Assembly: GCF_000010985.1 (NCBI RefSeq)
Contig: NC_013940.1
Span: forward strand, 62,001 to 126,000
Source: Deferribacter desulfuricans SSM1
Lineage (GTDB): Bacteria; Chrysiogenota; Deferribacteres; Deferribacterales; Deferribacteraceae
Reading direction: 5' to 3'
DNA: 64,000 nt
Shown piece after piece: positions 2,790 to 25,746 of this stretch. The notes below the pieces were generated by a model. It was not told the DNA's origin. It ran no database searches and was given only the letters and a program-made list of their open reading frames with translations. A program made the position numbers and the translations under genes. Each line of letters starts with the position of its first letter. Position 1 is the first letter of the stretch.

Positions 2790-5651
2790 ATGAGGTTTTT
2801 TGTTAATAAACCTCGCACTATAATTATAATTTATATAATATTATATATACTTAGTTGTATTACATTTGCATTTGCTGAAGAAAATGTAAAACAGTTACAT
2901 TACATTATTTCTGATATAAATGAGTATCAGGAATTTTATATACCATTAAAAGTTAATGGTAATACATTGCAGGATGATTTTATCGTCCTGCTTTCTCCTG
3001 ATGGACAAAAAGTTTTAATACCTTTTCAAAATCTTACTAAATTATTAAAGTTTGGTTTATACTTACATCGTGTAAACGATAATTTATACATTTTACAGGG
3101 TTATTTTTTAAATAAGGATTATTTTTTAAATTTAAAAACAACTAAAATATATAAATATAAAAATGTATTTTCTGTTTTGAAATTTCAAGGATATTTAGTA
3201 AATGACAGACAAAATAAAACTGTAAATATAACAACATATTTAGCTATTTATAATAATAAATATTATATTAGTTGTAATTATTTATCTAAATTATTTAACA
3301 ATATTATTGAAGTTAATTATGATCCAATAAATATGGAATTAATATTAAAAACAGATGTAAAATTAAATTCACAAATTTTGGAAGAAAGAAAAAAGAAGAG
3401 AGAAAAATATGAAAATTACACAAAACAGCTACAGAATCAACAAACAAAAGATATTGTTTCGGTAAAGAACCAACCTTTATTGGTTAGTGAATATAATGTT
3501 AAATTGATTCCATATGCAATGGATAATACTAAAAATTATATTGATTCAATAGAGTTAGATAATACTTTAAATTATAATAAAATAGTTTTCCAAGATTATT
3601 TAAACTACAATTCTCAAGACGGCATTAATATAAATTATTTATCTTTAAATTATAATTTAAAGAAATCTAACGTTGAAAATATACAATTTGAATATTTAAA
3701 GCCTTATTTAATAAGCGATGTACAATATTTAAATAAATTATTTGGTAATTATATAATTGATAAAATAATGCAAAATACAATAGATATGAACAATACTTCT
3801 TATAATAGTGATGTTTCTAAATCGATAGTAGTAGAAGTTAATAATTACAAGATAGATTATGATGATGTATATAGTACCATGGATATTAATAATTTTTTAC
3901 AAAAAGAAAATATTTTTAGTAAATACAAATTAAATAATGTTTTTCATTATAGTATAGATGATTTCGAATTTTATAAAAACAAAGATCTGTTGTTTAATGG
4001 TAATGTTAAGAATATAAAAAATGAATTAAATAATGTAGATTTACATTATGGAATGAATGCATTTAAGATGTCCTATTTTTCTTATATTTTAGGAGAATAT
4101 ACAGATACATATATTATAAATGTAGATAATAATTACCCTAAAAAAGAACAGTTATTATATAAATTAAGATCTGAAATAGTAGGAGAAAATAATTATAGGT
4201 TAATTGATTTTGCTTATGGTTTAGGAAATTTTGATTATATAAAATATAGCAGTTTTAACTTAAAAAACAACATCTATGATATAGATTATCAATCAATTAG
4301 CTATAATAGAAATTATTATTTTTCGAAATTATATAAGCAATTTAATTTAGATATAAATTTATTTAAGTTAGGGGATGAGCAATTTTTAAAAACAAATTTT
4401 CAATTAATTGATTTAAATGGTAATCAAAACACTTTGACTTTTACAAAATCTTTGAAAAACAATATATATGGATTAACTTTAAAAAGGTTGATGCAATTTA
4501 ATAAGTTATCAAGTCGTATTACAATTGATTGGGTAAAAAATATAAATAGTACATATTTAGATGTTAATTATAAACTAAACTATAATTTAGGTTATAAAGT
4601 TAATATAACTTGGGAAAATAGTTATAAAAAACAAAAATATACTGATTCTAATTTTTTATTAAATTCTTATAATACTAAGTTATCTTTTTATTATAATCTA
4701 ACTAAATCTATTCGTTTAAAGTATGCAATGGAATATAACTATAATGATTTGAAATATGAAGATAATTTACTAAAAACAACTGTAACAGGTCATGTTTTAG
4801 AGATTAAATCTAAACTTTCTAATAAATGGGAATTAACAGCTGAAGCGGGAGTATCTTCTGATAATAGCAAACAGTTTATGTTTTTATTAACTTATAAAGA
4901 TGACAAATACACTCATACAGTGCAGACTTCATCTATTCATTCAAGTTATAAAAATGAAACAGAGATGAATTATACAATAAATGGAGCTGTTTTTACAACA
5001 TATTCAAATGTTGATAAAAAAATATTAAATTACTTCTATAAAACTAATACTACAGGGATATTATTGATTAAGCCATTTATTGATATAAATGGTAATGATA
5101 AATATGATAAAAATGAAGATACTGTGGTACAGAATTTAAAATTTAAAATTGATAATAATGTTATCAGAGTAGATACTTTTGATGTAAAAAATGGTTATTA
5201 TGTTATTTATAATGTACCTTATGGTAAAAGACATTATTTATCAATTGATGAAAAAAGTATTGAGGACCCATATATATCTCCAGTAAATAAATTTTATAGT
5301 TTTAAATTAGATAAACAAGACTTAAATATAATTTTTATACCTTTTGTTTATTATGGAGAAATTTTTGGTTATGTGGATTCAATAATAGCACATGCTACTA
5401 ACAACTGTTTTGTAGAATTGCGTAATTCAAAAACAGGTAAAATTCATAGATCAGAAATCTTTGAAGATTTTTCTTATTATTTTCAAAAAGTTCCTTTAGG
5501 GGGATATTTATTACAGTTAGTTTGTCAAAAAGAGGGTAAAGATAAAATATATGATAGGTTAAATGTTAAGCTTTTTTATGATAAAAAGCTAAATTTTGTT
5601 AACACATCGGTAGATTTGACAAATAGGTTATTACATTATAACAAACAATAA
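2790..5651 (+). CDS. Outer-membrane usher-like protein of a chaperone-usher pilus
   Basis: This protein of 953 residues starts with a signal peptide (IIIYIILYILSCITFAFA). An N-terminal domain is followed by a charged linker near 205-220, then a long region of alternating aromatic/polar strands from about 240 to 800, typical of an outer-membrane barrel. Near 760-790 is a Ca-binding-like segment (DINGNDKYDKNED) inside a carboxypeptidase-regulatory-like fold, and a second small beta-domain ends the protein. The size, topology and position after a PapD-like chaperone support an usher that secretes and polymerises pilins. Sequence similarity to FimD is weak by eye, so the family call rests partly on context. 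No clear ribosome binding site precedes the ATG. Confidence 0.65.
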   Translation: MRFFVNKPRTIIIIYIILYILSCITFAFAEENVKQLHYIISDINEYQEFYIPLKVNGNTLQDDFIVLLSPDGQKVLIPFQNLTKLLKFGLYLHRVNDNLYILQGYFLNKDYFLNLKTTKIYKYKNVFSVLKFQGYLVNDRQNKTVNITTYLAIYNNKYYISCNYLSKLFNNIIEVNYDPINMELILKTDVKLNSQILEERKKKREKYENYTKQLQNQQTKDIVSVKNQPLLVSEYNVKLIPYAMDNTKNYIDSIELDNTLNYNKIVFQDYLNYNSQDGININYLSLNYNLKKSNVENIQFEYLKPYLISDVQYLNKLFGNYIIDKIMQNTIDMNNTSYNSDVSKSIVVEVNNYKIDYDDVYSTMDINNFLQKENIFSKYKLNNVFHYSIDDFEFYKNKDLLFNGNVKNIKNELNNVDLHYGMNAFKMSYFSYILGEYTDTYIINVDNNYPKKEQLLYKLRSEIVGENNYRLIDFAYGLGNFDYIKYSSFNLKNNIYDIDYQSISYNRNYYFSKLYKQFNLDINLFKLGDEQFLKTNFQLIDLNGNQNTLTFTKSLKNNIYGLTLKRLMQFNKLSSRITIDWVKNINSTYLDVNYKLNYNLGYKVNITWENSYKKQKYTDSNFLLNSYNTKLSFYYNLTKSIRLKYAMEYNYNDLKYEDNLLKTTVTGHVLEIKSKLSNKWELTAEAGVSSDNSKQFMFLLTYKDDKYTHTVQTSSIHSSYKNETEMNYTINGAVFTTYSNVDKKILNYFYKTNTTGILLIKPFIDINGNDKYDKNEDTVVQNLKFKIDNNVIRVDTFDVKNGYYVIYNVPYGKRHYLSIDEKSIEDPYISPVNKFYSFKLDKQDLNIIFIPFVYYGEIFGYVDSIIAHATNNCFVELRNSKTGKIHRSEIFEDFSYYFQKVPLGGYLLQLVCQKEGKDKIYDRLNVKLFYDKKLNFVNTSVDLTNRLLHYNKQ

Positions 5652-14161: not shown

Positions 14162-15127
14162 ATGGAATTAGAGCCATTAATAAAGGATAACTTAGTTAAT
14201 GACTTAATTAGATGGAAAAAGCTATTTATAGAAGATTTACGAGTGAGAAATTACTCAAATAATACTATTGAATTGTATTCAAAGGAAATTGATTATTTTA
14301 TTGAGTATAGTAGGGGTTATGTTGATGAAATGGATATTAATGATATTAATAGACCATATATACAAGGTAGTTTGGCTTATAGAGAAGAAATATCAATTAA
14401 AGACAGTATAAGTTCTAATACTAAACAAATATACATAAAAGCATTAAAGCAGTTCTTTATTTTTATAACTGAAAATAATAGAGAGTATAAAGACTATACT
14501 ACTATATTTAGAAAAATTAAAATAGTAACACAAACAAAAGAGAAGGAATACTTAACCGAACAGGAGATTAGTAAGTTATTAAACTATTTAGAGGTATTAA
14601 AGAGCAGAAGGGAGAGTATTGTTACATTTCGTAATGTATTTTTAATAAAGTTATTATTATATTCAGGATTACGTATATCAGAGGCTTTACAGCTTAAATT
14701 TACAGATTTTGAAGAAATTGCAATTAATAATACATATTACTATCAAATTAAAGTAAAAGGTAAAGGACAAACGGAATCTTACGCATATGTACCAAAAGAG
14801 CTCATAGAAGATGAGTATTTATATTTAAGTGAATCTTACAGTAATAAACATAATAATATTTTTATTACTCGTAATGGATCCATTTTAAAACGACAAGATG
14901 CTTATAAAATAATTACTAATATTTACAAAAAAGCAGGTATAAACAAAACTGGTATACATCTATTAAGACATACATTTGCTATGAAGTTAGTAAATGCTGG
15001 AGTAGATTTGTTACACATAAAAGAGTTGCTAAGACATAAAAATGTAAATAGTACTCTTGTATATGCAAAAAGTACACAACAGATGGTAGATGAAAGTTTT
15101 AAAAAGAGTATATTGAATAAAGATTAA
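14162..15127 (+). CDS. Tyrosine recombinase/integrase (XerC/D-like)
   Basis: This 321-residue protein has an N-terminal SAM-like DNA-binding domain (RNYSNNTIELYSKEIDYFIEY) and a C-terminal catalytic domain. Arg is in YSGLRISEALQLKF, Lys in KVKGKGQ, HLLRHTFA gives the H-x-x-R, LLRHKN supplies the next His, and LVYAKS the nucleophile Tyr. All catalytic residues are present. It may resolve multimers of this replicon or integrate the element. The ribosome binding site before the ATG is GGTGG. Transcription is likely repressed by the divergent RHH protein. Confidence 0.93.
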   Translation: MELEPLIKDNLVNDLIRWKKLFIEDLRVRNYSNNTIELYSKEIDYFIEYSRGYVDEMDINDINRPYIQGSLAYREEISIKDSISSNTKQIYIKALKQFFIFITENNREYKDYTTIFRKIKIVTQTKEKEYLTEQEISKLLNYLEVLKSRRESIVTFRNVFLIKLLLYSGLRISEALQLKFTDFEEIAINNTYYYQIKVKGKGQTESYAYVPKELIEDEYLYLSESYSNKHNNIFITRNGSILKRQDAYKIITNIYKKAGINKTGIHLLRHTFAMKLVNAGVDLLHIKELLRHKNVNSTLVYAKSTQQMVDESFKKSILNKD

Positions 15128-15148: not shown

Positions 15149-15820
15149 ATGAAAAATATTAATAGTGATATAACACAACAAGATATTATTGATAATTTTC
15201 AAAATTTATATGCTAATTTTTTACAAAAAATAGATAATTTAATTCAAGATAATTTGGATAATATAACATCTAATACAATAAATCATCTGTATTATTTACA
15301 GTTTAATTTATTAAAAAATTTTAAAGGAAACTCTAGTGGTTTTACCGGATTGTCAGAATTTTTAATTGTAAGATTTATTATTCATTATATAACTAAAAAA
15401 TATAATCAAAATTTTAAATTGCTACCAATTACAAAAGACATTAAGTATTGGCAAAGTCAAAATTTCAAAATAAATGTACAACAGACAATTAAATTACCTA
15501 AACCAGTTAAAGTTGGTAATAAAAAACAAAATAAAATACAACCTGATATAATAATAAAAAAAGAGAATAAAATTATAAGTTATATTGAAATTAAAATTTA
15601 TTTAAAGGATTTTAAAATACTAGAGGATTTAATTAAAAAATATGAAGTATTATTAGAAAATAACAAAAATAATTATAAATTATTATTTATATTATTTAAT
15701 GGAAATGATAATATTATGGAAAAACTAGATAAATATAAATTACAAAATACATGGTTTAATTATATTGTACTAAATAAATCTAACAAGAAATTCATTGATG
15801 CAGTTAATAAAATAGTTTGA
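15149..15820 (+). CDS. Putative PD-(D/E)xK-fold protein
   Basis: In this 223-residue protein the N-terminal half is helical. Residues 130-155 read NKIQPDIIIKKENK then ISYIEIKIYLKD, which fits the PD...(D/E)xK core of restriction-endonuclease-fold nucleases. A strong AAAGGGGGG ribosome binding site lies 21 bases after the integrase stop, so the two are probably co-transcribed. It could be a nuclease of the recombination or defence module. The substrate is unknown, and the fold call rests on a short motif. Confidence 0.55.
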   Translation: MKNINSDITQQDIIDNFQNLYANFLQKIDNLIQDNLDNITSNTINHLYYLQFNLLKNFKGNSSGFTGLSEFLIVRFIIHYITKKYNQNFKLLPITKDIKYWQSQNFKINVQQTIKLPKPVKVGNKKQNKIQPDIIIKKENKIISYIEIKIYLKDFKILEDLIKKYEVLLENNKNNYKLLFILFNGNDNIMEKLDKYKLQNTWFNYIVLNKSNKKFIDAVNKIV

Positions 15821-15877
15821 AAATTTAAAATTTTCTATATTCTGGAATTTAGAATGTTATAATAAACCAAAAATATT

Positions 15878-16375
15878 AAATTAATTCCTAATAGGTACAA
15901 TACAAACAGAACACCTAAAATAATTACCACAACTATAACTTCTGTGTTTCAACTCCTAATAGGTACAATATAAACAAAAATCACCATTACATCATTTATT
16001 GCTTTTGTAATGTTTCAACTCCTGATAGGTACAATATAAACACTGATTATTTTGAGATATGGTGGGATGCAGATAAATTGTTTCAACTCCTGATAGGTAC
16101 AATATAAACAAAGTTTAATAAAAAGGAAAGATGTGTCGGATATAAGTTTCAACTCCTGATAGGTACAATATAAACTGAAATGATGTATTTGATGAAAGTG
16201 ATACAACGTGGTTTCAACTCCTGATAGGTACAATATAAACGTGCTTAGTAATACTAATACACAAATATTTTTGAAAACGTTTCAACTCCTGATAGGTACA
16301 ATATAAACAGCTCAACAAAAATAGCATAACTACTAGCTGTAAGCGGTTTCAACTCCTGATAGGTACAATATAAAC
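15878..16375 (-). CRISPR. CRISPR array 1 (8 repeats, 7 spacers), type I-B repeat
   Basis: 30-base repeats starting GTTTCAACTCC and ending GTACAATATAAAC on the plus strand occur at 15946, 16012, 16080, 16146, 16211, 16279 and 16346. A degenerate one lies at 15878-15907. Spacers are 35-38 bases. Degeneration at the left end and the leader at the right show that transcription is on the minus strand, so crRNAs carry the 5' handle GTTGAAAC. The leader-distal spacer (15908-15945) is identical to the leader-distal spacer of array 2. Spacers at 16042 and 16176 read as open frames (for example FEIWWDADK), as expected for coding protospacers. Confidence 0.97.
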
Positions 16376-16607
16376 CCTTATCTCTAAAAATATTCAATTT
16401 TCAAACAACTTGTTGTTGTCTCTATATTATTATTATATCAAAAAGTACAAAAAATTTCAAAATTTTTACATAATTTTCAGTCGATTTCTAATCATGCAAA
16501 AATCCCTGGAGATCGACAATTACTTTATATTATTAATAAAATGTCTGTTTTTAGTTATTTTTTTACTTACTCTTATACTTGTTTTTTCATTAAAACATTG
16601 AGATCGA
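16376..16607 (-). promoter_or_regulatory. Leader of CRISPR array 1
   Basis: About 145 bases from 16376 are almost identical to the leader of array 2. On the minus strand TTGAAA (16455-16460), 17 bases and TATAAT (16432-16437) form a promoter about 57 bases before the first repeat. Upstream is an inverted pair GTCGAT (16480-16485) / ATCGAC (16512-16517), and a third GATCGAC at 16602-16608 overlaps the cas3 stop codon. Confidence 0.85.
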
Positions 16608-19013
16608 CTAAAGTGCAATATATAAATTACTATCAGTTTTGAATCCTGTTTCATAGTCATAATAATCATCTAAATTATCTATAGGTACATAGTAAAAATT
16701 ATTTTCAATTGGTGGAATATTCATATTGTCTTTTATAGGTACTGATATAATGTATTCGAAAAAATCTTTTTTTATATTGTTAAATAATCTTTTTCTTTCC
16801 AAATAATCTTTTATATTACTTATTTTAATATATTCTTTCCAAATTGTTACAGCTGTATCATCTAATTGAATAAAAACATCAATTCTGGGGTAATTATTGT
16901 TTATAAGTTTAAAATCTTCTACAGAAGTAATTTTATTATTATCTTTTTCATAAGTAAATTTTAATTCGCTTAATATTTTTAATAATTCCAGTGAGTCACT
17001 ATTAGATTTAATTTCATTAACTTTTTGAAAATACTTATTTGTTAATTGAATAAATTCTGGCTCTGTAAAAAACTCTTTATCTAATATTTGTTCTGTTGCT
17101 GTCAATAAAAGTGTATCGTAAATATAAGAGCCATATAATCTACCTTGATGATTTTCATTATAAAGCTTTAGAATATTAAATATACCTGTTGTTTTCTCAC
17201 CATTTCTATTACATCTTCCAGCTGACTGTATTAAACTATCCAGAGGTGCAAAGTCTCTGTAAACTACATCAAAATCAATATCAACTCCAGCTTCCACAAG
17301 TTGTGTGGATACTACTATTCTTTTATCATTGTTTTTTATTTGCTGGATCCTTTTTAATCTTTCTTTTGGTGTAATATGTGTAGATAAAAATAATATATCA
17401 TTTTTATATTCTTTTTTTAATAACTCATATAATCTTTTAGCAGAATTAACAGTATTCATTATAAATAAGTAAGTTTTATTTTTTTCAATATTTAAACTAT
17501 AATAAAATTCATCTACAGTTTTTAAATCTTTATTTATGTTAACTACATACCTATCTAATTTATCAAAATAATTATTACTTGCTAATTCGATATATTGTTT
17601 TTTATCAAAAATCATTGGTTGAGTAGCAGTAGTTAATATTACATAAAAATTAAATTTTTCAGCCATTTTGTTTAATACTTCTTTTAATAATAACCAATAT
17701 TTTTGAGGAATAGATTGGATTTCATCTAAAATTACTATAGAATTAGTTAGCTTGTGAAATTTTCGAAGCATTTTATTTTTATTCCCAATAAGAGAATAAA
17801 AAAACTGTAAAAATGTTGTTGTAATTATTTGTCCATTCCAACCTTCAATCAATAATTTAGATGTATCATATTCGAATTCGTCGTTTTGATATGTATATGT
17901 CATATCAGTTAGATAATGATGTTTTATTAAAATAGAATTATCAACTTTAATATTATTAGTCTCTAAAACAGATTTAATAACATTATAGTTTTGCTCAATT
18001 ACAGATAAAAAGGGTAAACAATATATAATCTTTGGAATAACATTTTTTTCTTCTTTTATCTTATTAGACAGTTTAAGAGCTAATTTAAATGAAAGTAATG
18101 TTTTACCTAAACCAGTGGGTAGTGTTAATGTGTAAATTTTGTTGTTTATATCTATATCTTTAGTTGTAATTTCCTGAAAAGCTTGTTGTCTTAATTTTAC
18201 AATATCGGTTTTTTTAAATTTTAAAGTGTTAATAAAATTATCAATTATTTCTGATGATAAATTATCTCTTTTAAATAATATATTTTTATCTGCTTTTATT
18301 CCTGCATCTGATTTATCAGCATCAATTAATATTGAATATAATAAACTAACAATAATATAATAGTCAATATTAATAGGTTTTGAATTAATTCTACTTTTTA
18401 ATAAAATATTAGTTTTGTTTAATCCATTTACTGTAGTTCTAATATTTTTTATAAACTTGTTAATTTGTCTAATTAATAAAATTATATTATTAAAATTAAT
18501 TTCATTTAAATTGAATTTAATTAAATCTTTATTGTTTATTTTAGTATTTTCTATAAATTGATAAAACTGATCTTGATTTATTTTTAATAAGTTTAGTTGT
18601 GTTGTTAATAGTTCAATCTGATTTTCATCTAATAAAGTTATTTGATAAACATCTACCAAATTAGAATGATGTAATCTAGGTATAACAAACGATAAAAATA
18701 ATAAAAAATCATTATTTTGATTTATTGATTTTAGATATCTATCAGTTAAATATAAACTGATGCAAGCACCAAATAACGAATGTGTAGTTTCAGGTTTATT
18801 TTTTAGTTCACTATTTCCTTTAATATATTCTTGAAAAGCTGTAGTGGCTTTACCTACATCATGTGCAAATGAAATTATTGTAAGAATATTTTTTAAAATA
18901 TTATCATTTAGTTTTGTATTATCATAAAAATTATTAACTAACTTAATAACATTACTAATATGGTCTTCCAGTTGTTTATCAGGATGAGACAATAATCCAG
19001 ACTTGGTAGCCAC
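16608..19013 (-). CDS. cas3: Cas3 helicase-nuclease of the type I-B system
   Basis: This 801-residue protein is recruited by Cascade to unwind and degrade target DNA. The N-terminal HD nuclease domain shows H10, H18 and SFAHDVGKATTAFQ. The SF2 helicase part has Walker A LPTGLGKTLLS near 298, DEIQ near 427, LTTATQP, AGVDIDFDVVYRD and QSAGRCNRNG near 597. All key residues are present. The start is GTG at 19013, supported by GAGG upstream. It is the last gene of the operon; its stop lies within a GATCGAC motif of the array 1 leader region. Confidence 0.96.
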   Translation of the reverse strand: MATKSGLLSHPDKQLEDHISNVIKLVNNFYDNTKLNDNILKNILTIISFAHDVGKATTAFQEYIKGNSELKNKPETTHSLFGACISLYLTDRYLKSINQNNDFLLFLSFVIPRLHHSNLVDVYQITLLDENQIELLTTQLNLLKINQDQFYQFIENTKINNKDLIKFNLNEINFNNIILLIRQINKFIKNIRTTVNGLNKTNILLKSRINSKPINIDYYIIVSLLYSILIDADKSDAGIKADKNILFKRDNLSSEIIDNFINTLKFKKTDIVKLRQQAFQEITTKDIDINNKIYTLTLPTGLGKTLLSFKLALKLSNKIKEEKNVIPKIIYCLPFLSVIEQNYNVIKSVLETNNIKVDNSILIKHHYLTDMTYTYQNDEFEYDTSKLLIEGWNGQIITTTFLQFFYSLIGNKNKMLRKFHKLTNSIVILDEIQSIPQKYWLLLKEVLNKMAEKFNFYVILTTATQPMIFDKKQYIELASNNYFDKLDRYVVNINKDLKTVDEFYYSLNIEKNKTYLFIMNTVNSAKRLYELLKKEYKNDILFLSTHITPKERLKRIQQIKNNDKRIVVSTQLVEAGVDIDFDVVYRDFAPLDSLIQSAGRCNRNGEKTTGIFNILKLYNENHQGRLYGSYIYDTLLLTATEQILDKEFFTEPEFIQLTNKYFQKVNEIKSNSDSLELLKILSELKFTYEKDNNKITSVEDFKLINNNYPRIDVFIQLDDTAVTIWKEYIKISNIKDYLERKRLFNNIKKDFFEYIISVPIKDNMNIPPIENNFYYVPIDNLDDYYDYETGFKTDSNLYIAL

Positions 19014-19034
19014 TTAATAACCTCACTATATTAT

Positions 19035-19730
19035 TTATATAAAAGAAATTATATCACCATTGTCAAGTTTATAACACTCTTTAAATTCTCCTTCTAAAGC
19101 AGCACCATTTAATTCCATTAATATTTCTTTATATAACTTAACTTGTCTGTCTGTAGACATATCCACAGGTAATGTTTCTTTAAAGTATTTTTTACCTGAT
19201 ACTGCTTTTATATTTTCTATATTTTCTAGAGGTATTATAGTTTTTATTGTATCTGTATGATTTATATGTTCAGCTTTAAATACACCAATATATTTATAAT
19301 TTGCTATCAAATTAGCAGTTCCTAGTGATACAGTATAATATAACAATTTATTTTGTATTTTATTAATTAAATTAGTAAATATTTCATTATTATTTATATG
19401 TATAAATAACCTAAAAGATGGATTTTTAAGATATTCTACTTGTATAGGAGTTCTATCTTTTAAGTACCATAAATCATTTATTTCTTTTGCTAATACGTAA
19501 TTAGTACTCATTCTTACTTTTGTAATAGGTTTTAAAATTTGAATACCTAATTTAGTAGTACTATAGTTAAAAATTTCTAAATGTTTGTATCCTTTTGTTC
19601 CTAATATAGCACCTAACATACCGTAAACAGCAGTCGGTGTAGGACAAGAGAAGGTAAGGGGAGAGGAAGTTGTATAAAACTTCCTATAATGTGCATAATC
19701 TCCCCATATATCAAATACTAGTACTTTCAT
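19035..19730 (-). CDS. cas5: Cas5 (type I-B, Cas5h-like)
   Basis: This 231-residue RAMP protein caps the crRNA 5' handle in Cascade. The N-terminus KVLVFDIWGDYAHYRKFYTT followed by FSCPTPTAVYGMLGAILG is the classical Cas5 signature of the Hmari-type I-B family. The ribosome binding site AAGG lies in the 12 bases after the cas7 stop; cas3 follows after 21 bases. It is complete. Confidence 0.95.
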   Translation of the reverse strand: MKVLVFDIWGDYAHYRKFYTTSSPLTFSCPTPTAVYGMLGAILGTKGYKHLEIFNYSTTKLGIQILKPITKVRMSTNYVLAKEINDLWYLKDRTPIQVEYLKNPSFRLFIHINNNEIFTNLINKIQNKLLYYTVSLGTANLIANYKYIGVFKAEHINHTDTIKTIIPLENIENIKAVSGKKYFKETLPVDMSTDRQVKLYKEILMELNGAALEGEFKECYKLDNGDIISFI

Positions 19731-19742
19731 AACCTTATTCCT

Positions 19743-20651
19743 TTAAAATTCAATTTTTTCAAATTTAACTTCATCTGATGCTAAAGGCTTATTTAGTTTT
19801 AGCTTTCTATCAACTTTAAATGTAACTTTTTCTATTTTATCTGCATATTCTTCTAATACATCAATAAGTTCATCTACGTTTAAAACAAAATCTTCTGTAC
19901 TTCTAATCTCTTCATCTTCTAATTCTGATTCAATTTTTACATATTTATGTAGTTCACCAATATGAGTGCATACTCCTTCTTTAAATATTACTTCTATTAG
20001 TAGTCTTGGTAATTGTTCAGTTTTCGATCGTGTAATTAAGTTTTTAGTACCTTCCCACATGGCTTTTTTAAAGTATTCAACATCTTCATCTGTGAGTTTA
20101 GTATCTACAGCTGCTTGTTCATTTAATATAGCGTGAAATGCGATTAAAGAATATGGAAGAACCCAGTCTTCTCTAAAAGTTTTTTGTTCTTTATTTTCAC
20201 CAGATGCAAAAGCACCAGTACCTTTAATATGCATTAGTTTTACCTTATGTAATGACTGTCCTATATTAAATTGAATAGGACCAGTAAATGTTATAGATTT
20301 TCCAGAGTTACTCTTTTTTTCAAGTGGTATAGTTGCTCCAAATAATCTAATATCAATGCACTCTGCTAAAATTTTTTCTGGGTTTTTTCCAAAATTTGCT
20401 GCCCTGTCTTTAGCTTCTTGTAGTTTACCATTTTTATTAAAAATTTCTCTAATAAAAATTTCTTTGTTTTCATAATTTAGTAAATAATCTCTAATAGTTC
20501 TTTTAAGTCTTACATCAGTTACAATGTTAATTTGGGTTTCTTCGTCTATTCTTGGCCTGTTTTCGTCATTAGGATCACCATTAGGGTTAGCATATTTTAC
20601 GTCATACAAGAATAAATATTCTCTGCGGTTTTTTACAATATTTTCTGACAT
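19743..20651 (-). CDS. cas7: Cas7 (Csh2 family), Cascade backbone
   Basis: This 302-residue protein forms the backbone along the crRNA. The N-terminus has REYLFLYDVKYANPNGDPND then RPRIDEETQINIVTDVRLKR, the Csh2/Cas7 signature with RRM-like core. FTGPIQFNIGQSLHKV and a GTGAFASGENK loop follow. The ribosome binding site AAGGAGG is excellent, as expected for the most abundant subunit. It lies 31 bases after cas8b. Confidence 0.96.
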   Translation of the reverse strand: MSENIVKNRREYLFLYDVKYANPNGDPNDENRPRIDEETQINIVTDVRLKRTIRDYLLNYENKEIFIREIFNKNGKLQEAKDRAANFGKNPEKILAECIDIRLFGATIPLEKKSNSGKSITFTGPIQFNIGQSLHKVKLMHIKGTGAFASGENKEQKTFREDWVLPYSLIAFHAILNEQAAVDTKLTDEDVEYFKKAMWEGTKNLITRSKTEQLPRLLIEVIFKEGVCTHIGELHKYVKIESELEDEEIRSTEDFVLNVDELIDVLEEYADKIEKVTFKVDRKLKLNKPLASDEVKFEKIEF

Positions 20652-20682
20652 ATTATCTTACCTCCTTGTTATTATTTTTATT

Positions 20683-22569
20683 TTATTCATTTTTATTAGT
20701 ATTTTCTTCAGTATTATTTTCATTATTGTTATTTTGAATTTGTTTTTGTTCTTCTGCTATTTGTTTTGCTATTTCGATTACATCATTATAGTAGCTTGTT
20801 CCAGCAAAAAGATAATAATTTATTTCATCTACAGTCATATGGAATTTATTTTCTTTTAATAAATAATTAGAAATTTCTTTTGCTAATATTCTTACAAAAG
20901 GATAATAAGCATCGTATTCTCTATACTTAACTAATGTATTTGTAAATAAAGATTGAATGTCTTTTTCAGTTAGCTTACCACCTTTTAATTGTTTTATAAA
21001 TGGAGAATTAGTTCTTTTACCTTTTTGTATTTCTATTAATTTTTCTACAAGAGCTCCTAACAAGAATATACCTCTTCTTGCTGGAGTGTTTAGTTTTTTA
21101 CCTATTTTTTCAAATATTTCATTAAATTTAGAATTTTCTTGCATTGGTTTTACCTCCTTGTTTAATATTTCTAATTCTTCTAAAAATCTTACATTCATAA
21201 TGGCACTTAATATTGTTTTTTTGAGTTTGTTTTTATTACGTGAATTATCTTTGAAAAGTTTTTCTCTAATACCATCCATTTGAAGACGTATAAATAGATT
21301 AAAATCAAGGTGTCCACCTTTAAATATTTTATTAGTTATATCAAAAAATAACTTATTATCATTTTTTACAAATTCATATATATAACTCAAATTATAATCT
21401 ATATTAAATAATTTATCTATTTTCTCTTTGGCATTAAAAATAGTTTTAAGTCTAGATGGATATACATCTTCTACTAATAATACAATTCTTTCAGCTGAAT
21501 TATCTTTCTTTAAAAAGAGAAAATAAAAGCTAATAGCATCTTTATATGTACTTATAATATCTAAGATTTCACTTTTGTTATTTGTTATATACTTTCTATT
21601 TTCGTTTGATATATTTTGTTGTTTTTTATCTACTGCTAACAAATTATTAATTTCATCTAATATAGTATTATCCTTATTCAGTATAATTTTAGGTATTAAT
21701 ATATAATTACTACCATAAAAACTATATTTAAAATTATTTTCAACTGTTTTTCTTCCTATAATTGCTTTGATAAAGCATTCTAAACAGATAGGGAAGTTTT
21801 TCCATGCTTTATCTTTGTCAAACCCACCTGCGACATAAACAACTTTATCTGTAGTATAAAATCTAAAAATTTCAGAGGTGGAAAATACTTGTTTATGAGT
21901 TCTACATATACTACATGTAGAAAATGTTTTTTGAAAATTATTTGTAACTTTAAGTATATAATCTTCTACTAAAATTCTTTTAAAGTTTGGTTTATCAATT
22001 TCAAACAAATATTTTCCATTAATTTTTATAGTAAAAATAGCTTTTTCTCGACTGGATTTTTTTGGGTTTATTATTTGTGTTAGTTTAATTAAATCATTTA
22101 ATATTGTGTTTTTATGTTTTTCTACTTCATTGAACATTTGAGCAATTTCGTTAATATGTAAGTGATTTTTAAACCACTGTTCAAGTTTATTCAATTTTGT
22201 ATTTGCATTTTTATCTAGAAAAGCTGGGCTATAGTTAGTACCTCTAGAAGAACCTCTTTTATATAAATATAAGTAACTATTTTCTTTTTGAAAATCTTTT
22301 TCAATTATATTAGGTGATATTAATTCATAATTATTATCAAACTCTAAACACCATTCTCTTATAATATAAGAGTCATTACTCAAGTCATCTGTTAAAGTAT
22401 CAGTAAATATATTTATTTTTTCGTCAGATAATGATTTTATATCAGATAATGATTTTATATCACATAATTCTGCTATACTTATTTTACTAGATAATATTTT
22501 AGAATCATATAATCCTGTAATGTAATCATTATAGACTAATTCACCTAAATCTTTTAAAGCTGTAATCAT
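20683..22569 (-). CDS. cas8b: Cas8b (Csh1 family), large Cascade subunit
   Basis: This 628-residue protein would recognise the PAM and initiate R-loop formation. It has the zinc-binding pair typical of Csh1, CSICRTHKQVFSTSE near 219 and FPICLECF near 261, inside a long helical protein. Near the N-terminus an 18-base tandem duplication gives DIKSLSDIKSLSDEK. The extreme C-terminus is a low-complexity Asn/Glu tail. The start is supported by GAGGTG. It sits between cas6 and cas7 as in other I-B operons. Confidence 0.92.
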   Translation of the reverse strand: MITALKDLGELVYNDYITGLYDSKILSSKISIAELCDIKSLSDIKSLSDEKINIFTDTLTDDLSNDSYIIREWCLEFDNNYELISPNIIEKDFQKENSYLYLYKRGSSRGTNYSPAFLDKNANTKLNKLEQWFKNHLHINEIAQMFNEVEKHKNTILNDLIKLTQIINPKKSSREKAIFTIKINGKYLFEIDKPNFKRILVEDYILKVTNNFQKTFSTCSICRTHKQVFSTSEIFRFYTTDKVVYVAGGFDKDKAWKNFPICLECFIKAIIGRKTVENNFKYSFYGSNYILIPKIILNKDNTILDEINNLLAVDKKQQNISNENRKYITNNKSEILDIISTYKDAISFYFLFLKKDNSAERIVLLVEDVYPSRLKTIFNAKEKIDKLFNIDYNLSYIYEFVKNDNKLFFDITNKIFKGGHLDFNLFIRLQMDGIREKLFKDNSRNKNKLKKTILSAIMNVRFLEELEILNKEVKPMQENSKFNEIFEKIGKKLNTPARRGIFLLGALVEKLIEIQKGKRTNSPFIKQLKGGKLTEKDIQSLFTNTLVKYREYDAYYPFVRILAKEISNYLLKENKFHMTVDEINYYLFAGTSYYNDVIEIAKQIAEEQKQIQNNNNENNTEENTNKNE

Positions 22570-22608
22570 TTAACACCTCGTTATTTTAATAATTTAATAT
22601 CAAATATA

Positions 22609-23379
22609 TTAATTATTCTTAATAATACTAAACATACCAAAACCTTGGGAGTTTTTTGCTCCCAAACCAACATCATAAATTGTTTTTAAAATTTCTGGTT
22701 CTGTTTCTATCTCAAATATACCATCATATGCTTCTATAATAAAATCTTTATTTATTTTTGGTTTTTTAATATATTTAGTTATTATTTTTTTATATTTAAT
22801 ATTTTTCATATTAAAATCAAAATCATTTATAATAGTATTTGTTAATAATGCATATTTCTTTTTGATATTATTTTTTACTAATACATTAAAATCAATATCG
22901 TTTGGATTATAATAGTGATATTTTTTATTTTCTAATGTTCTATATACAGTAATAGGGGAAAGAGTGTTAATTAAACATTTATTAGTAATTTCAGGTTGTG
23001 GTAATACTTCTATACTTTCTATATAAACAGTATTATCGCCTAATTTTAAATTATCTGATAATAAAAAATTATTATTCCAATTATTAATAAAATTATTAAT
23101 TCCTGATGCTATATATAATGTTACAGGTGTTTTAAATTTAATATATTTATCTGTTTTTTTATTATCTTGTATAGTAATTATTTGAAAATAAGAACTATAT
23201 AAATTAGAAAATGTAAATAGTTTAAATTGACGCTTATAATAAAAGAAACCTATATTATGAAGAAAGTCTGAAAGAGGTTTCGGAAGATTATTATATAAAA
23301 ATCCTTGTATAATATGTTTATGATTTATAGGTAATAATATAAAATTTTTATTTGAATTAATTTCTATTTTCATTCTCAT
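22609..23379 (-). CDS. cas6: Cas6 crRNA-processing endonuclease
   Basis: Cas6 cuts repeat RNA to release crRNAs. The N-terminal strand and LLPINHKHIIQGFLYNNLPK, with a likely catalytic His, and the C-terminal Gly-rich GLGAKNSQGFGMF identify the family. I place the start at ATG 23379 (MRMKIEIN; 256 residues), not at the earlier in-frame ATG 23415. The promoter -10 ends eight bases before 23379, and 23415 lies in the -35. The mRNA would therefore be leaderless. It is the first gene of the operon and close to array 2. Confidence 0.92.
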   Translation of the reverse strand: MRMKIEINSNKNFILLPINHKHIIQGFLYNNLPKPLSDFLHNIGFFYYKRQFKLFTFSNLYSSYFQIITIQDNKKTDKYIKFKTPVTLYIASGINNFINNWNNNFLLSDNLKLGDNTVYIESIEVLPQPEITNKCLINTLSPITVYRTLENKKYHYYNPNDIDFNVLVKNNIKKKYALLTNTIINDFDFNMKNIKYKKIITKYIKKPKINKDFIIEAYDGIFEIETEPEILKTIYDVGLGAKNSQGFGMFSIIKNN

Positions 23380-23386
23380 ATTAATT

Positions 23387-23415
23387 ATTATACTATAAAA
23401 AAATATTAATGTCAA
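23387..23415 (-). promoter_or_regulatory. cas operon promoter (leaderless)
   Basis: Minus strand: TTGACA (23410-23415), 17 bases, TATAAT (23387-23392). The expected transcript begins at or next to the A of the cas6 ATG at 23379. The interval 23416-23557 up to array 2 shows no other feature. Confidence 0.75.
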
Positions 23416-23557
23416 ATAATTTTTATATTATTATATTAAATTTGACAATATAAGTAATGTTTTTGGTTTTAATATATTAAATATATTAATTTTATTTATT
23501 ATTACATGACTATTAATTATATTGATTTGTTTTTTAAATAATAATTAGTTTTTTTTA

Positions 23558-24387
23558 ACCTTATCTCCTAATAGATACAATACAAACAGAACACCTAAAA
23601 TAATTACCACAACTATAACTTCTGTGTTTCAACTCCTGATAGGTACAATATAAACAAATATGGTAAACTAAAAGTTGATGATTACGTATATAGTTTCAAC
23701 TCCTGATAGGTACAATATAAACGATATTCTTTGCAGTATACACCTTTATATTTAAACCGTTTCAACTCCTGATAGGTACAATATAAACTTGATAAATCAG
23801 TTGGACCAGAAATTAATTTCATTAGGTTTCAACTCCTGATAGGTACAATATAAACCTCATCCAATTCCTAAGTGTGAATTTGCTAACCTTGTTTCAACTC
23901 CTGATAGGTACAATATAAACTAGAAACAAATTTTTTGGAGCATGCTGCAAGAGGTGTGTTTCAACTCCTGATAGGTACAATATAAACTTGCACAAGCATA
24001 TCCTTGCGCATGTACCAAGCCTCTTTGTTTCAACTCCTGATAGGTACAATATAAACTGCTTTTGCTGTTGTTTTTGTTGCTGTTGTTTTAGTTTCAACTC
24101 CTGATAGGTACAATATAAACTAACTATTGATGATATATTCTGTTTTGTTGTGCCTGTGTTTCAACTCCTGATAGGTACAATATAAACTTATATTTTTGTA
24201 TAAATTATATGTATATGCATATTGTTTCAACTCCTGATAGGTACAATATAAACGCTTCAGCAATTCCATACTTATCACTTATTTTTATTGGTTTCAACTC
24301 CTGATAGGTACAATATAAACTGTATTTTTCAAAGTTTTTATCTTTTGTAACAAATTCGTTTCAACTCCTGATAGGTACAATATAAAC
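23558..24387 (-). CRISPR. CRISPR array 2 (13 repeats, 12 spacers), type I-B repeat
   Basis: Same 30-base repeat as array 1, at 23626, 23693, 23759, 23826, 23891, 23958, 24027, 24091, 24158, 24224, 24291 and 24358, with a degenerate repeat at 23558-23587. Spacers are 34-39 bases. The leader-distal spacer 23588-23625 is identical to 15908-15945 of array 1; the remaining spacers differ. The spacer at 24057 is CTG/TTG-rich and low in complexity. The array is transcribed leftwards from the leader at 24388. Confidence 0.97.
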
Positions 24388-24640
24388 CCTTATCTCTAAA
24401 AATATTCAATTTTCAAACAACTTGTTGTTGTCTCTATATTATTATTATATCAAAAAGTATAAAAAATTTCAAAATTTTTACATAATTTTCGTCGATCTCT
24501 AATCATGCAAAAATTCCTGGGGATCGACAATTATTTGGTATTTATAACAAAATAATCTATTTTATATATTTTTTAGAGTATTTTGTCTATCATTTAATAG
24601 TAAAAAAATAGAGGTCGACGAAAATAAAAAAAAGTAATTA
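24388..24640 (-). promoter_or_regulatory. Leader of CRISPR array 2
   Basis: Near-identical to the array 1 leader over about 145 bases. Promoter on the minus strand: TTGAAA (24467-24472), 17 bases, TATAAT (24444-24449). Inverted pair GTCGATC (24491-24497) / GATCGAC (24522-24528), with a third site GGTCGAC at 24613-24619. Confidence 0.85.
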
Positions 24641-24786: not shown

Positions 24787-24885
24787 TATAATCTAATTTA
24801 TAATTTATTTATTATTTATTTTGATAAATTATGTTATAATATAATCATGAAAAGAAATGCAAAATCAAAATCAAGAGGTAAAAAT

Positions 24886-25746
24886 ATGGAATACAAAAAA
24901 TTTAGTAATAATATAACGTCTACTAATATTACTGATGATAATTTTGATTGGGAACATTTATTAAATGTTGCCTGTAAATTTCATAAAATATTTCCAGATG
25001 GGATATTAATTGGTGGTTCTGTTGCGTCAATTTATGCAATGCATAGAGTATCATTTGATATTGATTTTGTATTTAATGATTTAAAGGAAAAATTTGAAAA
25101 GTTTATTGATATTTTAGAAAAAGGGGAAATAGAAGTTGATAATGTAAAAGAAGAATGGGAGTGGGAATTGGCTCGAATGGCAAAAGGAAAAGTAATTTTA
25201 GGTAATTTTGATGGTGTAGAAACAGGTTTAAGACAGTTAATGAGAACAAAACCGTTAGAAACAACTTTATATGAAGTAAAACCAGGTAAATTCATAAAAA
25301 TACCTACCATAGAAGAAACTTTAAGAACTAAAGCTTGGATGATTTTGTCAAGAAATGCTACAAGAGATTATTTAGATTTTTGTGCTTTAGCAAAACAATT
25401 GTATAGTGAAGATCCAGCAAGATTAATTAAAGCTATGGAATCTTTTGATGATTATTATATAGATATGTATGATAAATTAAAAAAGCGTAAACCTGAGAAT
25501 AAAAAATCACCATTATTACAATTACTAAAACAATTAGCGGAACCAAAACCATTTGATTTAAATAAAATAGATTTAAAAAAATATAAAGGAATTGTTAAAC
25601 CATGGACTGAATGGAAGAACATAAAAAAAATATCCCAGGATGCAGCTGTTGTATTAACAGAAGCTTTAACAGGTATTGAACCTACTTTTAAAAAAGAAAT
25701 TGAGACTAAAGTAAAAAGAGATAATGATAATTTAATGGAGTTATAG
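24886..25746 (+). CDS. AbiEii-like nucleotidyltransferase
   Basis: The protein has 286 residues from ATG 24886, supported by AAGAGG eight bases upstream. An alternative ATG at 24847 lies seven bases after a TATAAT and could start a leaderless form with 13 more residues. The nucleotidyltransferase core GILIGGSVASIYAMHR followed by SFDIDFVF contains the GG/GS and DxD elements, and NATRDYLDFCALAKQ fits the AbiEii/MenT C-terminal motif. Such proteins act as toxins that modify tRNA or nucleotides in phage defence. The next gene starts one base after its stop codon, and the CRISPR locus adjoins it. Confidence 0.75.
   Translation: MEYKKFSNNITSTNITDDNFDWEHLLNVACKFHKIFPDGILIGGSVASIYAMHRVSFDIDFVFNDLKEKFEKFIDILEKGEIEVDNVKEEWEWELARMAKGKVILGNFDGVETGLRQLMRTKPLETTLYEVKPGKFIKIPTIEETLRTKAWMILSRNATRDYLDFCALAKQLYSEDPARLIKAMESFDDYYIDMYDKLKKRKPENKKSPLLQLLKQLAEPKPFDLNKIDLKKYKGIVKPWTEWKNIKKISQDAAVVLTEALTGIEPTFKKEIETKVKRDNDNLMEL

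Follow-up and report, generated by a model that had tools for sequence, protein, structure and literature searches.

The window analysed here, 64,000 nucleotides of the vent bacterium Deferribacter desulfuricans SSM1 (NC_013940.1, positions 62,001 to 126,000), carries an effector operon of a type I-B CRISPR (clustered regularly interspaced short palindromic repeats)-Cas system with an array on either side. The genome, which we searched as two contigs (99.9% complete, one sequenced strain), consists of a chromosome of 2,234,389 bp (C1) and a plasmid of 308,544 bp (C2), and the window corresponds to C2:62001-126000.

The effector operon and its two arrays

Five genes in the order cas6-cas8b-cas7-cas5-cas3 lie on the minus strand, with every open reading frame (ORF) intact and intergenic gaps of 12-39 bp, and in profile searches all of their products scored above the curated cut-offs of their families, which bears out the sequence-only reading that this gene set is complete. 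Cas6 (22609-23379; 256 aa from the ATG start adopted here, the ORF list beginning at a TTG at 23415) matches TIGR01877 with 137 bits (cut-off 59) and Cas6b at 8e-69. Cas8b of the TM1802/Csh1 family (20683-22569; 628 aa) reaches 314 bits with TIGR02556 (cut-off 157) and 204 bits with TIGR02591 (cut-off 104), Cas7b/Csh2 (19743-20651; 302 aa) reaches 305 bits with TIGR02590 (cut-off 172), and Cas5b (19035-19730; 231 aa) is above the cut-off of TIGR02592. Cas3, with HD nuclease and helicase domains (16608-19013; 801 aa), is recognised by TIGR01587 (146 bits, cut-off 102), the HD model TIGR01596 (73 bits, cut-off 43) and PADLOC Cas3b (1e-203); the Pfam Cas3_HD model scores under its own cut-off, while TIGR01596 and TIGR01587 pass.

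A Cas8b signature protein together with Cas7b, Cas5b, Cas6 and a two-domain Cas3 defines the effector as type I-B. A complete I-B locus also contains cas1, cas2 and cas4. These genes were found to be lacking not only from the locus, as had been noted from the window, but from the whole 308-kb plasmid, including the part beyond the window where cas1 or cas2 might have been located. The plasmid locus is therefore an adaptation-less I-B system, its subtype being assigned from the effector. A published paper lists one Cas cluster for each replicon of D. desulfuricans SSM1 and calls both complete (PMC6896113, Table 1). The presence of Cas3 and Cas8b rules out a type IV plasmid system, which has no Cas3 and a Csf1-type large subunit. 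A I-B CRISPR-associated transposon is likewise ruled out by Cas3 and by the lack of a Tn7-like protein among the tested neighbours, one of which is a tyrosine recombinase. To either side of the locus lie an AbiEii-like nucleotidyltransferase gene (window 24847-25746) and the tyrosine recombinase gene (14162-15127).

Both arrays are read from the minus strand, with the leader to the right of each array, the promoter directed into it and the repeat end appearing as GTTGAAAC; in the sense of the CRISPR RNA (crRNA) the repeat terminates in NTTGAAAC, in keeping with type I-B. Repeats are about 30 bp and spacers 34-39 bp long. Array 1 (15878-16375) comprises a degenerate terminal repeat (15878-15907), its oldest spacer (15908-15945) and 7 repeats (the first at 15946-15975, the last at 16346-16375), giving 7 spacers. 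Array 2 (23558-24387) has the same layout, with a degenerate terminal repeat (23558-23587) only 179 bp from cas6, an oldest spacer at 23588-23625, 12 repeats and 12 spacers. All but one of the 19 full repeats are identical, and the exception, which differs by one base, adjoins the oldest spacer of array 1. The sequence-only reading had seen one leader-distal spacer common to both arrays behind a degenerate repeat, with all others different, and this description holds: the two oldest spacers are identical over 38/38 positions and 18 of the 19 spacers are unique. A shared oldest spacer combined with otherwise disjoint spacers fits the proposal made there, that one array was duplicated and that both copies then took up spacers independently.

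The chromosomal locus that carries the adaptation genes

Whole-genome searches revealed one copy each of cas1 (C1:524721-525566), cas2 (C1:524370-524582) and cas4 (C1:525591-526064), all within a complete chromosomal I-B locus (C1:514.7-527.6 kb) that reads array, cas4, cas1, cas2, cas6, cas8b, cas7, a nucleotidyltransferase-like gene, cas5, a Phd/YafQ-like pair, cas3, array. The layout of an operon between two arrays, the order of the Cas genes and the leader module described below are alike in the plasmid locus, which differs in lacking the nucleotidyltransferase-like gene, the YafQ/Phd-like pair and the cas4-cas1-cas2 block, the latter occupying precisely the interval that separates the upstream array from cas6 on the chromosome. 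The chromosomal arrays (at ~526.1-527.6 kb and 514.7-516.7 kb) hold roughly 29 and 21 spacers, compared with 7 and 12 on the plasmid. The expectation that the host chromosome would carry cas1-cas2-cas4 and arrays with the same repeat was thus correct for the genes and only partly so for the repeat, which is related rather than identical (23-24/30 positions match). The effector proteins of the two loci are 44-71% identical (Cas6 51-53%, Cas8b 44-45%, Cas7 71%, Cas5 55%, Cas3 57-59%).

Two features of the chromosomal locus are recorded here in their own right. One of its arrays carries the same spacer twice in succession (C1:526493-526528 and 526559-526594), and the Phd/YafQ-like toxin-antitoxin pair and MntA-like nucleotidyltransferase of its operon (L002:14251-14772 and 15517-15873) are identically placed in a Hydrogenothermaceae metagenome-assembled genome (MAG; L027:1148-2730), neither being present in the plasmid operon.

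A leader module in Deferribacter and other phyla

The two plasmid leaders are 100% identical from -1 to -50, 98% from -51 to -100 and 90% from -101 to -150, beyond which identity falls to 58%, so the earlier estimate of about 145 shared bases was a fair one. All four leaders of D. desulfuricans, two plasmid and two chromosomal, can be aligned and display one common architecture: the TATAAT of a sigma-70-like promoter is found at -62 or -63, a palindromic element GTCGATCTCCAGG...GATTAGAGRTCGAC (GTCGAY/RTCGAC), 38 bp long, starts at -140 to -142, and a GTCGA half-site, degenerate in one chromosomal leader, lies at -231 to -233. On the minus strand of the window these elements lie in the array 1 leader (16376-16608) at 16432-16437 (-10), ~16455-16460 (-35), 16480-16517 (palindrome) and 16602-16608 (distal half-site), and in the array 2 leader (24388-24619) at 24444-24449, ~24467-24472, 24491-24528 and 24613-24619. 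In the D. desulfuricans genome the palindrome pattern has four matches, each of them at -140 to -142 relative to an array; the 51 genomes of the phylum that were searched, D. desulfuricans included, contain no other. Palindrome, half-site, promoter and spacing have been kept while the effectors drifted to 44-71% identity, which suggests that the leaders are under selection.

The same module is found outside the phylum. In a Leptospiraceae MAG, all six copies of the palindrome (6/6) are followed by repeat 1 of an array at a distance of about 141 bp, and among the Aquificota the palindrome is present in 26/136 genomes, where a reversed control pattern had no match. Of the 29 Aquificota loci fetched, a repeat follows 141-146 bp downstream in 25 (including the weak match L059 at a contig end) and 121 bp downstream in two, and two run into a contig edge. 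A distal GTCGA site lies 90-91 bp upstream of the palindrome in 18/28 testable Aquificota leaders, and mean pairwise identity between leaders is 82% within the palindrome and 49-59% in the rest of the leader. A leader module made up of palindrome, distal half-site and a promoter between palindrome and array is therefore common to Deferribacter, Aquificota and the Leptospiraceae MAG. We found no published description of it in a literature search that did not cover several key leader-motif papers. Cas1b was detected in 21/26 motif-bearing and 42/110 other Aquificota genomes (Fisher p = 1e-4, indicative only since the genomes are related).

Variants of the module adjoin two arrays on mobile elements. 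A contig classed as viral (IMG/VR 3300044960_000180) carries a mini-array of six I-B-like repeats (L050:3074-3435) adjoining a GTCGATCCCCAG...CTGGGGATCGAC palindrome (3561-3598) whose centre is inverted, at 126-163 bp from the array. Plasmid pAT6 of Aureibacter tunicatorum (NZ_AP025311.1; L053:1-500) encodes a type I-D system with a Cas1b-Cas4-Cas2 module and has the same palindrome and distal half-site beside its array, at 79-116 and 197 bp, in what may be the leader. The variants beside this I-D array with its Cas1b module and beside the phage mini-array suggest that the module may follow the adaptation genes rather than the effector subtype.

Probable adaptation in trans and its alternatives

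We believe, with a probability of roughly 75%, that the plasmid carries a I-B interference module with two arrays, and that the chromosomal Cas4-Cas1-Cas2 proteins do the writing at their leaders. Adaptation supplied in trans by the host is the most likely explanation of the plasmid arrays because the effector is intact, the newer spacers are unshared in both arrays and the sole integrase of the cell is chromosomal; the common leader architecture further supports the earlier proposal that adaptation proteins act in trans, probably from the host. An effector and arrays without adaptation genes thus reside on the plasmid, and a compatible module, with a common leader and repeats matching at 23-24/30 positions, is present in the same cell. 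Since the plasmid retains the array-operon-array order minus cas4-cas1-cas2, a complete ancestral locus probably lost this block. The conserved leader and repeat core (CCTATNAGG, TTGAAAC) would then allow the host integrase to add spacers at the plasmid arrays, Cas6 would process the crRNA, Cas5, Cas7 and Cas8b would form the surveillance complex and Cas3 would degrade the target, so that the crRNAs may guide the effector of the plasmid itself to mobile elements that have yet to be sequenced.

Two points weigh against this model: the plasmid and chromosomal repeats differ at 6-7/30 positions, and the acquisitions, seen in a single sequenced strain, may predate the loss of cas1-2-4 or the arrival of the plasmid in its host. 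The arrays might accordingly be a relic memory, gained with the locus's own former cas1-2-4 or in an earlier host and now frozen, in which case the likeness of the leaders would be mere inheritance. The synteny does imply that the ancestral locus held cas4-cas1-cas2 in the stretch from array to cas6, the plasmid arrays are short, and no spacer target was found that could date them. However, a frozen locus sits poorly with a leader module that has apparently been held under selection while the effectors diverged, and with plasmid repeats that are not decaying save at the oldest end, and we regard this scenario as unlikely. Far less probable still is a recent origin of the plasmid locus by copying from the chromosome. 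Plasmid Cas7, Cas5 and Cas3 are slightly nearer to the chromosomal proteins than to outside relatives, but protein identity is a mere 44-71%, and in a tree of Cas7, Cas5 and Cas3 the plasmid branch falls outside the clade that the D. desulfuricans chromosome forms with the Hydrogenothermaceae MAG and the Leptospiraceae MAG; a sister grouping of plasmid and chromosome is rejected by the approximately unbiased test (p = 0.028), although not by the Shimodaira-Hasegawa test. Divergence and tree placement together therefore suggest, with the caveat of few taxa, that the plasmid locus represents an old sister lineage. No relatives of its Cas7 were found in IMG/VR, and a search for close plasmid relatives returned none by Cas8b and only matches of <60% by Cas7. 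The Leptospiraceae MAG itself has a cas8b split into two ORFs (L028:7695-9415) and a type III-like gene set between cas6 and cas8b.

A further question is what the leader module does. A role in adaptation is suggested by its fixed distance from repeat 1 and by its association with Cas1b. The palindrome also lies at a fixed distance from the array promoter, which counts against trans adaptation insofar as the element may serve transcription instead; as an operator or activator site it would make the shared leader a matter of common crRNA regulation and say little about adaptation. We consider this a serious contender, if somewhat short of an even chance, given that the spacing of palindrome and promoter (54 bp from the palindrome start in most Aquificota leaders, 55-56 bp in D. 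desulfuricans) is at least as constant as that of palindrome and array. Against it stands the distal half-site kept 90-91 bp further upstream in most testable Aquificota leaders. The Leptospiraceae leaders also speak against it: their promoter has moved some 21 bp towards the palindrome while the distance to the array remains ~141 bp, which favours the array as the reference point of the palindrome, albeit in one lineage. The two roles are not mutually exclusive and may coexist. More tentatively, the module, with its half-site 90-91 bp upstream and repeat 1 ~141 bp downstream of the palindrome, could be an undescribed cross-phylum leader signal read by a sequence-specific factor, either Cas1-2-4 or a host protein, that directs integration, and hence a portable address tag that plugs arrays on mobile replicons into host adaptation.

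The sequence-only reading had also raised the prospect of cooperation or competition between replicons. None of the 18 unique plasmid spacers matched the chromosome or the plasmid outside the arrays, and searches of phages (best E 0.8) and of PLSDB plasmids gave no target. For six plasmid spacers, exact 18-21-mers gave no target in IMG/VR, a single 18-mer match being due to chance as it extends to just 24/35 positions. Most chromosomal spacers (a few, mainly repetitive or hairpin, were left out of the query) likewise matched nothing in the genome outside the arrays. Competition is therefore unsupported, there being no cross-match between replicons among the spacers tested, and no target in the searched collections or in the cell bears on whether the replicons cooperate or compete.

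That plasmid or provirus effectors outsource adaptation has been published before, and the concept is not new. Adaptation modules occur in only 36% of plasmid systems compared with 88% of chromosomal ones, and use of chromosomal machinery in trans is an accepted idea (PMC9071438); the text of that paper does not mention Deferribacter, for which both the donor adaptation locus and the matching leaders could be pinpointed within one cell. The closest parallel is the 'adaptive outsourcing' described for Haloferax lucentense (PMC12596717), where a I-B effector without cas1, cas2 and cas4 on a mobile element is likewise accompanied by a complete I-B system elsewhere in the cell, presumed to supply adaptation. 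That case is archaeal, concerns a provirus rather than a plasmid, with the complete system on a megaplasmid and the replicon roles reversed, and its text makes no mention of leaders, which are the main evidence for Deferribacter. A study entitled 'Cooperation between Different CRISPR-Cas Types Enables Adaptation in an RNA-Targeting System' (PMC8092290) describes a locus without acquisition genes that is served by another in the same cell; its partners belong to different CRISPR types, whereas those in Deferribacter share a subtype and sit on two replicons.

The conserved leader module is the more surprising finding. As for adaptation in trans, D. desulfuricans would be a clear example of a cultured bacterium in which the memory of a plasmid immune effector is written by machinery encoded on the other replicon, the donor locus and the matching leader signals both being present in one cell. 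The 38-bp site makes adaptation in trans directly testable by mutation, and the module may offer a sequence rule to predict which orphan or mobile arrays a host Cas1-2-4 can serve.

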